Source: a virus. From it: DNA of 64,000 bases. The stretch is from IMG/VR virus record IMGVR_UViG_3300017917_003859, positions 91,028 through 155,027 of that record; one strand, 5' to 3'. How positions within the stretch are numbered: the stretch's first letter is position 1; each line of letters starts with the position of its first letter. The notes under the pieces were generated by a model that was not told where the DNA came from, ran no database searches, and saw only the letters and a program-made list of their open reading frames with translations. Below are positions 6,009 through 50,679 of this stretch, in pieces. The translations under genes and the position numbers were made by a program.

Positions 6009-8426
<2,418 letters not shown>

Positions 8427-8427
<1 letters not shown>

Positions 8428-43445: not shown

Positions 43446-43481
43446 ACAATAGAAAGTTATGAACAACCTAGATAAACAATA
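43429..43481 (+). repeat. Tandem 23-bp direct repeat at thymidylate synthase start
   Basis: The 23 bases beginning ATGAACAACCTAGATAAACA occur at 43429 and again at 43459, a 30-bp period. The first copy reads MNNLDKQ then a stop; the second is the real start of the gene. It looks like a small duplication. Confidence 0.8.
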
Positions 43482-44790
43482 CACAGACCTACTCCAAGAC
43501 ATTTTGGATAATGGTTACACTAAAGGTGACCGTACAGGTACAGGAACACTATCAGTATTCGGAAGACAAATACGTCATAAAATGAGTGATGGATTTCCTT
43601 TACTTACAACTAAAAAGATGGCTTGGAAATCAATCGTAACTGAGTTGATTTGGTTTTTAAGAGGTGATACCAATATCAAATACTTAGTTGATAATGACTG
43701 TCATATTTGGGATGGAGATGCGTATAAGAGATATGTAAAATGGGTTGAATCGGCTAAAAACCAGAATAATGAAAATGAGATAGTCAAAATACCTATGTCT
43801 AAAGAAGATTTTATTGAAACCATTAAAGGTAATGATGAGATATTAAAAAAAATGGGTAAAAGATATTGTGATGAGTTTGCTAAGAAGTGGGGTGAGTTAG
43901 GTCCAATTTATGGTAAGCAATGGAGAAGTTGGTACAAAAGAGAGGTAAGACTTAGAAGTGATGTTGTTGGTGAACCACTAACGCTACCTGAAATTTTTGA
44001 AGTTAAAATACCAATAGACCAAATCTCAAACCTAATCAACGACCTCAAAACAAACCCAGACTCAAGACGATTAATGGTTAATGCTTGGAATGCAGGTGAA
44101 TTAGACCAAATGGTACTTCCACCCTGTCATTATGGATTTCAAGTTTATACAAGAGAGTTGAGTTTAAAAGAGAGGTTATCTTTATGGGATAAAAGATTTG
44201 GGTTTGCAAATGAAGAACAACAAAATCAATTCAATCCCGATGTACATTTAGATACACATGGAATACCTAAACCAGCAATCTCTTTAATGTGGAATCAACG
44301 TTCAGTAGATACATTCTTAGGTTTACCATTCAACATTGCTTCTTATGGATTGTTATTAGAAATCATTGCTAAGGCAGTGAATATGGTTCCTGATGAATTG
44401 ATTGGTAACTTAGGTGATGTACATTTGTATTCAAATCATATTGAACAAGCCAAGGAACAGATTGGTAGAGAATTGAGTTTGGAAGAAAGACAAGATTTGT
44501 ATTATAAATTAAATCCAGAGTTCAGATTGTTACATGATGACATGAACGAACATATGAATAAACATAATGTTCCAAAACGAACAAGAGAACCATTTCCACT
44601 ACCAACATTAAACATCAATACAGAGTTTTGGCCTTATGAAGGTGGTGAGTGTGGTGTAGGTCCATTAGATGCTATTAAAGTATTTGAATCATTTAAAGAT
44701 GACAACTTTTGTAAATGTTTATTGGAAGAAGATATACAATTAAGTAATTATCAATCACACCCAACAATTAAAGCACCTTTATCAAATTAA
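43459..44790 (+). CDS. thyA: Thymidylate synthase (ThyA type) with insertions
   Basis: DRTGTGTLSVFGRQIRHKM and FPLLTTKKMAWKSI give the N-terminal fold; catalytic C223 lies in VLPPCHYGFQVY; SLMWNQRSVDTFLGLPFNIASY and LGDVHLYSNHIEQ complete the active site. At 443 aa it is far longer than the usual ~264. Extra blocks lie at about 95-145, 230-260 and 325-375. It methylates dUMP to dTMP, supplying the high T demand of this genome. With MazG-like and Nmad1 proteins it forms a nucleotide-pool module. Confidence 0.93.
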   Translation: MNNLDKQYTDLLQDILDNGYTKGDRTGTGTLSVFGRQIRHKMSDGFPLLTTKKMAWKSIVTELIWFLRGDTNIKYLVDNDCHIWDGDAYKRYVKWVESAKNQNNENEIVKIPMSKEDFIETIKGNDEILKKMGKRYCDEFAKKWGELGPIYGKQWRSWYKREVRLRSDVVGEPLTLPEIFEVKIPIDQISNLINDLKTNPDSRRLMVNAWNAGELDQMVLPPCHYGFQVYTRELSLKERLSLWDKRFGFANEEQQNQFNPDVHLDTHGIPKPAISLMWNQRSVDTFLGLPFNIASYGLLLEIIAKAVNMVPDELIGNLGDVHLYSNHIEQAKEQIGRELSLEERQDLYYKLNPEFRLLHDDMNEHMNKHNVPKRTREPFPLPTLNINTEFWPYEGGECGVGPLDAIKVFESFKDDNFCKCLLEEDIQLSNYQSHPTIKAPLSN

Positions 44791-46448: not shown

Positions 46449-46476
46449 GCTTACAAAATTTTCTAATATATATTCA
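46448..46476 (+). promoter_or_regulatory. GGCTTAC-type promoter
   Basis: GGCTTAC at 46448 and TATATTCA at 46469, 21 apart; the next gene starts at 46481. Confidence 0.65.
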
Positions 46477-46480
46477 TTAA

Positions 46481-49039: not shown

Positions 49040-49716
49040 ACTTAACTCACGGTTTCCACAAACAACTAACAATCCCAGAAGGAATTGATTTAGTTATTCA
49101 CACTGGTGATTGTAGTAATCATATTGACCCATATCTAAATGAATGGGAAGTAAAAGACTTTTTGATGTGGTATGAACAAGTACCTATTCCAAACAAAATC
49201 TATATTCCCGGAAACCACGACACATCAATTGAGAAAAATTTAGTAACTGCAGCAGATTTTACATCAAGAGGGATACACTTACTAGTCCATGATTGGATTA
49301 ATATAGGTGGTGATTACGATGGAATAAGGGTATTTGGTTCACCTTACACCCCAACTTTTGGTAATTGGTCGTTTATGAAATCAAGAGAAACTATAAATAG
49401 AATTTGGGAACAAATCCCTGAAGGGATGGATATTGTTGGTGTGCATGGACCATGTAAAGGAATACTTGATTTATCTTACAACAGACAAAATGAACTGGAG
49501 TTTTGTGGAGATAATGCTTTACGCAAACATATTTTGAATAGAGTAAAACCAAAATATTTCTTATCAGGACACATTCATAATTTTGAAGATATTATTAATA
49601 CTGGATTTAGACATTTACCTGATTATGAAATTACTTTTAGTAATGCAGCAGCAGTAACTGATAGAAAATTTAATTTAGGGATAACTTATAATGGAAATAT
49701 ATTTGAAATAAATTAG
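49024..49716 (+). CDS. Metallophosphoesterase, 5' frameshifted
   Basis: Calcineurin-type motifs are present: TGDCSN (about 28-33), IPGNHDT (about 62-68), GVHGP (about 141-145) and SGHIHN (about 181-186). The natural start at 49016 would read MKIWHISDT, then a stop; a 5-base stretch (TAACT, 49043-49047) breaks the frame before HGFHKQL. Only the start at 49024 in the other frame gives the full protein, and it changes the DTH metal ligand to LTH. The enzyme may therefore lack one metal ligand unless a frameshift or error is involved. Confidence 0.8.
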   Translation: MAYLGHLTHGFHKQLTIPEGIDLVIHTGDCSNHIDPYLNEWEVKDFLMWYEQVPIPNKIYIPGNHDTSIEKNLVTAADFTSRGIHLLVHDWINIGGDYDGIRVFGSPYTPTFGNWSFMKSRETINRIWEQIPEGMDIVGVHGPCKGILDLSYNRQNELEFCGDNALRKHILNRVKPKYFLSGHIHNFEDIINTGFRHLPDYEITFSNAAAVTDRKFNLGITYNGNIFEIN

Positions 49717-49836
49717 TCAGGTGGCGGAATTGGTTAGACGCTAACAAAAAGGGTTAAGATAGGAAAAGAAAGATCGTTAAAAAGATACCCACTTTGTCTT
49801 ATGACTATCATACAGGTTCGAATCCTGTCCTGACTA
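49715..49836 (+). tRNA. Oversized tRNA-Leu-like element (122 nt)
   Basis: Acceptor AGTCAGG/CCTGACT, D-arm GCGGAATTGGTTAGACGC, and T-arm ACAGG-TTCGAAT-CCTGT are all intact. The arm in anticodon position is TAAC-AAAAAGG-GTTA with no T33. It is followed by a ~52-base arm closed by GATAG/CTATC, far larger than any normal variable arm. GGGT in the loop can pair with ACCC in this arm. It could be a tRNA with a small intron, a pseudo-tRNA or a different functional RNA. It overlaps the phosphoesterase stop by 2 bases. Confidence 0.5.
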
Positions 49837-49959
49837 CGCGATCGCAGCTGCAACCTGCTAAACGGTGGGAGAGGGTACCCAGGCCTCTCAAAACAAGTAG
49901 AAACAACATCTCCCCAGTTTCTTGTTCTATGCATGGAAAGGATTTATAAGGAGATATTT
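49837..49959 (+). ncRNA. Structured spacer between tRNA-like elements
   Basis: This 123-base piece is GC-richer than its surroundings. It begins with GCGATCGC and GCAGCTGC palindromes. GAGAGG (49869-49874) pairs with CCTCTC (49884-49889); alternatively GGGAGA (49867-49872) pairs with TCTCCC (49909-49914). The two hairpins exclude each other. No open frame or tRNA fits. Confidence 0.4.
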
Positions 49960-50091
49960 AGTCAGGTGGCGAAATGGTAGACGCTACATACTCTGAGGTG
50001 CAAAAACAGAGGTAAGATGGAAACGATAACTTAAATGATTATCAGCTACTGCACCGCACCATCCGTACAGGTTCGAATCCTGTCCTGACTA
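49960..50091 (+). tRNA. Oversized tRNA-Leu-like element (132 nt)
   Basis: Acceptor and T-arm are identical to those of the element at 49715, and the D-arm is GCGAAATGGTAGACGC. The arm in anticodon position is TAC-ata-CTCTG, an 11-base loop AGGTGCAAAAA, then CAGAG-GTA, not a normal seven-base loop. A ~48-base arm closed by GATGG/CCATC follows, with an internal GATAA/TTATC hairpin. GGTGCA in the loop is exactly complementary to TGCACC (50050-50055), a pseudoknot. The anticodon cannot be assigned. Confidence 0.5.
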
Positions 50092-50096
50092 TAAGG

Positions 50097-50168
50097 GCTC
50101 CTGTCGTCTAGGGGTTAGGACGCATCCCTTTCACGGATGAAACGGCGGTTCGATTCCGCTCAGGAGTA
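50097..50168 (+). tRNA. tRNA-Glu (UUC)
   Basis: Regular cloverleaf of 72 bases: acceptor GCTCCTG/CAGGAGT (first pair G-U), D-arm GTCTAGGGGTTAGGAC, anticodon loop CTTTCAC with TTC, T-arm GGCGGTTCGATTCCGCT region. Discriminator A at 50168. No encoded CCA. Confidence 0.9.
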
Positions 50169-50194
50169 CAAAATGAATATTAATAAATAAAAAA

Positions 50195-50617: not shown

Positions 50618-50624
50618 TTGATTG

Positions 50625-50653
50625 GGCTTACAAAATTTTTGAATATATATTTA
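50625..50653 (+). promoter_or_regulatory. GGCTTAC-type promoter
   Basis: GGCTTAC at 50625, TATATTTA at 50646. It drives the DUF932-like gene at 50680. Confidence 0.7.
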
Positions 50654-50679
50654 CATCAAATAATTAAAAAATAAAAGTT

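Follow-up and report, generated by a model that had tools for sequence, protein, structure and literature searches.

What might an RNA do that keeps both ends of a leucine tRNA but has no anticodon arm? Two genes of this kind lie in the final 64 kb (hereafter the window) of the IMG/VR virus contig IMGVR_UViG_3300017917_003859, which is 155,027 bases long. In both, the acceptor stem, D-arm and T-arm of a leucine tRNA, here called the chassis, surround an oversized core. We find that these elements belong to a large phage family with constant ends and variable, structured cores. We put at roughly 60% the probability that they are non-decoding RNAs derived from a phage tRNA-Leu, processed as tRNAs, probably leucylatable, and carrying effector domains.

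Two elements with the same ends and different cores

A reading made without database searches (the sequence-only reading) had described two tandem, oversized tRNA-Leu-like RNAs of 122 and 132 nt with shared ends and unrelated centres, and its coordinates and anatomy proved correct (Table 1). The two elements have the same acceptor, AGTCAGG/CCTGACT, the same T-arm, ACAGG-TTCGAAT-CCTGT, and near-identical D-arms (GGCGGAATTGGTTAGACGC in element 1 and GGCGAAATGGTAGACGC in element 2), and no similarity was found between their cores. Both display the upper half of a tRNA: a 7-bp acceptor stem, a D-arm with G18G19, a 5-bp T-arm with a TTCRANY loop, and A73. Neither has a 5-bp anticodon stem with a 7-nt loop and an anticodon, and ARAGORN, a standard tRNA scan, calls neither, which agrees with the earlier statement that a normal anticodon loop is missing. 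With the Rfam tRNA model, element 2 reached 35.7 bits, whereas element 1, at 17.6 bits, stayed under the cut-off of 29. Searches against Rfam covered the window, the elements at relaxed thresholds, the spacer between them and a dozen loci, and returned only tRNA or sub-threshold chance matches. The elements share one locus but are not directly adjacent, so 'tandem' was half right: a conserved RNA, Y, separates them.

The arm previously noted as closed by GATRG/CYATC is indeed present in both elements, as GATAG/CTATC in element 1 and GATGG/CCATC in element 2, a compensatory A-U/G-C change. The sequence-only reading had also given both elements a loop complementary to this arm. For element 2 this held, as the crossing pairing GGTGCA/TGCACC outdid 60 of 60 shuffles (z −3.15), and covariation supports such a pairing in several families elsewhere; for element 1 it did not rise above chance. 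A single pattern hit for the window cores was rejected as a likely coincidence, since it fell within a long open stretch that lacked the chassis ends.

A large family across phages

Scans of IMG/VR, one for the 3′ end alone and one for the 5′ end alone, each returned at least about 120 contigs. A 22-base 3′ end occurred 1–13 times in each of 31 records and its reversed pattern never, which excludes chance as the source of the ends; a single contig carried up to 13 copies of the chassis 3′ end. Since hundreds of phage elements have these ends, there is no need to derive one window element from the other, as had been proposed.

We ran a geometric search for an acceptor plus T-arm over 3.3 Mb of fetched loci and found 630 tRNA-like elements, 358 with AGTCAGG-type acceptors and 272 with other acceptors. 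The latter were mostly of normal size (187 of 272 at 70–75 nt and 49 at 80–90 nt), and the lengths of the AGTCAGG-type elements lay between 65 and about 200 nt. With the acceptor AGTCAGG itself, 67% of elements were longer than 95 nt. Among elements outside both scan patterns, an AGTCAGG-type acceptor was present in 75 of the 96 longer than 95 nt, compared with 40 of the 291 shorter ones. Grouped by core similarity, the 358 AGTCAGG-type elements fell into 261 core families, 203 of them singletons. ARAGORN recognized 69 of these 358 elements (19%) compared with 244 of the 272 other tRNA-like elements in the same loci (90%), and for this reason we consider the AGTCAGG-type elements to be probably non-decoding. 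Some chassis-type elements were given by ARAGORN as tRNAs with four-base anticodons (caag and atga; L015/L131 and L037/L135).

We found no description of such an RNA class in the open-access literature on unusual tRNA-like phage RNAs, and the large set of chassis RNAs is apparently undescribed. Four genome contigs carried the chassis end, two of them Chitinophagaceae-type metagenome-assembled genomes (MAGs). A host origin of this end was considered and rejected: no close tRNA turned up in 199 genomes from the order to which the Sediminibacterium MAG belongs, where every other match had three mismatches. The loci also held a second oversized tRNA-like family, of 141–175 nt, with a conserved core (CTCGTCT ... 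GGGTTGACCACAAAGC) and varying acceptors (L017, L043, L074, L144, L159 and L306).

Cores are structured and move between chassis

To evaluate core structure, we predicted helices from one member of each core family with at least two members and scored them on the other members. Of the changed cells, 47% were compensatory and 19% broken for a helix in the position of the variable arm, just 5′ of the T-arm; for chance helices scored in the same way, the shares were 7% and 56%. In single sequences, the crossing (pseudoknot) helix was favoured where the variable-arm helix was strong (mean z −0.51 versus −0.13 and −0.05). A universal pseudoknot across all cores was rejected as a general rule. In family 0 (eight sequences), the crossing helix had two doubly changed pairs alongside many invariant unpaired bases. 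The smallest cores consist of one small hairpin.

Cores differ among the copies within one phage and recur between phages, and they also move between chassis. The core of family 6 (five sequences) covaries, and one unannotated copy lies in the GenBank phage MW202828 with the acceptor AGTGCAG/CTGCACT, so that the core is kept on an acceptor with both bases changed in three of its pairs. Further cores likewise recur on chassis with other acceptors.

Leucine identity positions are conserved

We scored conservation in each scan only on the end that had not been used for selection. In the 3′-selected set, A14A15 was conserved in 89% and G18G19 in 93%; in the 5′-selected set, the values were 97% for U48, 90% for A73 and 82% for the T-stem ACAGG. 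The Escherichia coli leucine identity set comprises A73, A15-U48, G18G19 and A20a, whereas the anticodon and the long arm are not read, and E. coli tRNA-Leu variants lacking the anticodon and long arms are still charged (PMC9976931). The chassis elements carry A73, A14, A15-U48 and G18G19. Judged from sequence, they retain the published leucine set and vary in the parts that leucyl-tRNA synthetase (LeuRS) ignores. From this intact set we predict that chassis RNAs are probably charged by the host LeuRS.

T4 RNA C has a similar build

A parallel exists in phage T4. RNA C (species 1 RNA) is a late stable RNA detected by Northern blot, with no known role (PMC3014915, PMC9697503). It is 139 nt long and sits within the T4 tRNA cluster. 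Its 3′ end forms a T-arm and then the acceptor strand, which base-pairs with the 5′ end of the RNA. In a comparison of six T-even phages, both bases had changed in one pair of the acceptor and in one of the T-stem, two U·U mismatches were constant and the stem 5′ of the T-arm covaried. Two phages, Klebsiella phage VPA32 (L391) and Citrobacter phage NM4.3 (L392), keep the RNA C ends around a 5′ core unrelated to that of T4. The homologue is unannotated in VPA32 and partly overlain by an annotated hypothetical open reading frame in NM4.3.

RNA C thus shares with the AGTCAGG family an oversized core enclosed by a tRNA-like acceptor and T-arm, the ends being constant and the core variable. It differs in its acceptor (CGATTCG/CGTTTCG, with the two U·U mismatches), in having no clear D-arm and in its own core. 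The RNA C sequence pattern (CGRTTCGAGGA ... TAGCGTCAACTA ... CGTTYCG) is absent from the window elements, whose ends differ. The likeness is a kinship by build, as distinct from membership or proven descent.

Comparison with known tRNA-like RNAs

Transfer-messenger RNA (tmRNA) consists of an upper tRNA half with a pseudoknot-bearing domain in place of the anticodon arm (PMC3985003). Because tmRNA already joins another domain to this half, chassis RNAs are not categorically new. They are, however, much shorter than tmRNA, keep an intact D-arm with G18G19 and have cores that differ over hundreds of families. They carry U3-A70 in place of the G3·U70 pair of alanine identity, and neither ARAGORN, which also searches for tmRNA, nor Rfam gave a tmRNA match that would indicate a tag frame or structure. 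With tRNA-Leu they share the Leu-type D-arm, A14, A15-U48, A73 and the T-arm, but they lack an anticodon arm, span 65–200 nt and are missed by ARAGORN in 81% of cases. Chassis RNAs are neither tmRNAs nor decoding tRNAs by these tests, and their only Rfam match, a weak one, is to tRNA. The tRNA-like 3′ ends of plant virus RNAs and engineered tRNA scaffolds also put the tRNA shape to non-decoding use; those are viral genome ends or man-made, whereas chassis RNAs are separate phage genes with many cores.

Alternative explanations

We considered whether the conserved upper half, not the core, might be the active part. Chassis RNAs would then be decoys that soak up a host factor attacking or binding tRNA elbows or 3′ tails, such as the tail-cutting Cas12a3 or the variable-loop-cutting Septu, with the core serving to block decoding or varying to escape recognition. 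Some defence systems of hosts do cleave tRNA tails or the variable loop (PMC12851939, PMC13096335), and constant ends, a variable core and several copies per phage would all be expected of decoys. Yet the cores are structured and covary, their unpaired bases are conserved within families, as mere filler would not need to be, and they persist through changes of acceptor. We therefore regard decoys, which the sequence-only reading had also raised as an example, as unlikely.

Mitochondrial tRNA punctuation is the model for a second possibility, that intergenic tRNA-like elements mark the sites at which RNase P and 3′ tRNA processing cleave polycistronic messages, while their cores drift. Many elements do lie directly between genes, some just upstream of start codons, and the phosphoesterase gene upstream of element 1 ends in a stop codon that overlaps the first base of the element. 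However, the elements cluster with tRNAs and small genes and are not spread among all genes, and such punctuation requires neither a fixed acceptor nor the leucine set nor covarying cores, which makes it a poor candidate. The proposal of the sequence-only reading that the RNAs are guide-like has hardly better prospects; the core would then pair with a target RNA or DNA, and the tRNA ends would provide stability. Cores do differ between copies in one phage, as guides might, but much of each core is internally paired. Against the locus of their own phage, cores showed no excess of matches (mean longest match 9.4 versus 9.2 in shuffles), and neither did the two window cores within the 155-kb contig; this comparison covers only the phage's own DNA.

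Small introns, whose removal would restore a normal anticodon arm, had also been proposed and are unlikely. The ends are of Leu type and Leu was the commonest isotype in the few elements that ARAGORN did call (18 of 69), but beyond the D-arm and T-arm there is no exon common to the 261 families. The smallest cores are too short for an anticodon arm plus an intron, covariation places the helix adjoining the T-arm in the final fold, ARAGORN recognizes far fewer of these elements than of other tRNA-like elements in the same loci, and no Rfam intron match was found. Decaying tRNA pseudogenes, which the unique, anticodon-less cores of the window might suggest, have next to no chance of being the answer, given intact and paired ends in hundreds of copies, covarying cores and core families that recur across phages.

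A model for chassis RNAs

We favour the view that these are non-decoding RNAs with effector domains. A chassis RNA would retain the acceptor stem, D-arm and T-arm, that is, the upper half of the L, while the anticodon and variable arms would have been swapped for a structured core specific to each family. Such a core usually has a helix in the variable-arm position, which in some families forms a pseudoknot with the anticodon side. The tRNA machinery (RNase P, 3′ processing and CCA addition) would cut the RNA from a longer transcript. The tRNA elbow would then stabilize it, and the leucine set, to go by the conserved residues and the published identity work, would probably let the host LeuRS charge it. 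Core structure and conservation within families are observed, and the core is proposed to carry the activity. As a guess, this activity may be to neutralize toxin or defence proteins of the host; an arms-race role of that kind would agree with the patchy distribution of the RNAs and their many versions.

Several observations weigh against this view. Over all families, the crossing helix was intermediate, with 15% compensatory and 40% broken, and is supported weakly. In element 1, 37% of shuffles equalled the best crossing pairing, and no relatives were found for either window core. The fixed acceptor sequence does not belong to the identity set known for E. coli LeuRS and is not accounted for by it.

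Genomic setting and neighbouring RNAs

Table 1 Features of the locus around the two chassis RNAs (window coordinates)
Feature	Position	Strand	Remarks
Element 1, chassis RNA, 122 nt including discriminator A	49715–49836	+	AGTCAGG/CCTGACT acceptor, Leu-type D-arm, T-arm; orphan core of ~70 nt
Element 1, variable-arm-position helix, 5′ strand GATAG	49758–49762	+	Partner CTATC 49805–49809
Element 1, variable-arm-position helix, 3′ strand CTATC	49805–49809	+	Two bases 5′ of T-stem
Spacer RNA Y, ~110 nt	49846–49955	+	Between elements 1 and 2; conserved, with pseudoknot
Element 2, chassis RNA, 132 nt	49960–50091	+	Ends as element 1; orphan core of ~80 nt
Element 2, anticodon-position hairpin CTCTG/CAGAG	49991–50011	+	11-nt loop with GGTGCA 49997–50002
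Element 2, variable-arm-position helix, 5′ strand GATGG	50016–50020	+	Partner CCATC 50059–50063
Element 2, TGCACC	50050–50055	+	Pseudoknot partner of GGTGCA 49997–50002; better than 60/60 shuffles
Element 2, variable-arm-position helix, 3′ strand CCATC	50059–50063	+	Three bases 5′ of T-stem
tRNA-Glu(TTC), ordinary	50097–50169	+	From tRNA calling

The tRNA-Glu(TTC) gene is the only ordinary tRNA called across the whole contig. The window encodes a T4-type family-B DNA polymerase whose closest named relatives are in Microcystis phage Mel-JY01 (31.7% identity) and KVP40-like phages (28–29%). Relatives of the phosphoesterase gene occur in Flavobacterium phages; together with the MAG contigs, this points to a probable Bacteroidota host. 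As an anchor the phosphoesterase gene was of little help, since, within the DNA covered, AGTCAGG elements were present in just one (L005) of the five related loci. The window also encodes a GroEL-like chaperonin (6796–8427) and a thymidylate synthase of 443 residues (43459–44790), in which Pfam matches residues 6–339 to profile positions 1–226; this span suggests an internal insertion of ~100 residues. Two alike intergenic stretches (46449–46480 and 50624–50655), resembling CTTACAAAATTTT(C/TG)TAATATATATT, are perhaps a phage promoter.

The spacer RNA Y has the parts AGCTKCAACCTGCTAAACGGT ... GTAGAAACAAC ... GTTTCTTG ... GGATTTATAAGGAG. A 16-base Y pattern gave 120 matches, most of them chance, and we kept only those that also had GTAGAAAC...GTTTC. 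About ten other phage contigs have Y in the part order of the window, and in six loci (L140, L148, L193, L224, L162 and L244) its halves stand in reversed order, a circular permutation. Over three tested helices, one of them crossing, five pairs were changed on both sides, compared with 1.4 in shuffles. Permutation and strong sequence conservation suggest that Y may be a ribozyme. Theta ribozymes adjoin phage tRNAs (PMC10879173) and, like Y after element 1, are conserved RNAs at the 3′ end of a phage tRNA; they are not inserted into tRNAs. Y had no Rfam ribozyme match (window region to E = 5, L158 homologue to E = 3), in a search that did not include the published theta motif itself.

A further RNA, Z (ACACGCACGGCA ... 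GTGCGTAGGTAA-TTTCAA), forms a free spacer after the 3′ ends of elements in L007, L025 and L074 and is a core inside a tRNA chassis in L270. A covarying hairpin, GAC-R-stem-GGAAAGAC-stem-(A)ACAT, lies a few bases 5′ of chassis elements in L007, L029, L051, L054, L071, L108, L111, L127, L131 and other loci, with the stems CTCG/CGAG, CTTG/CAAG, CCTCG/CGAGG and GCTG/CAGC.

Implications

A wider interpretation, which we offer tentatively and consider somewhat doubtful, is that phages of many kinds carry a modular RNA arsenal. It would be built on a leucylatable, anticodon-less tRNA-Leu chassis with hundreds of exchangeable, structured effector domains, several per genome, interspersed with Y, Z and the GGAAAGAC hairpin, and T4 RNA C would belong to the same functional class. 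The family suggests that phages hold an extensive class of RNA genes that are absent from Rfam and that programs for finding tRNAs mostly miss or label wrongly. Its conserved residues yield a sharp prediction, leucylation without an anticodon. RNA C of T4, described decades ago and still lacking an assigned role, gains a context among RNAs with constant ends and variable cores in many phages, and its role may be approachable by comparing and swapping cores.
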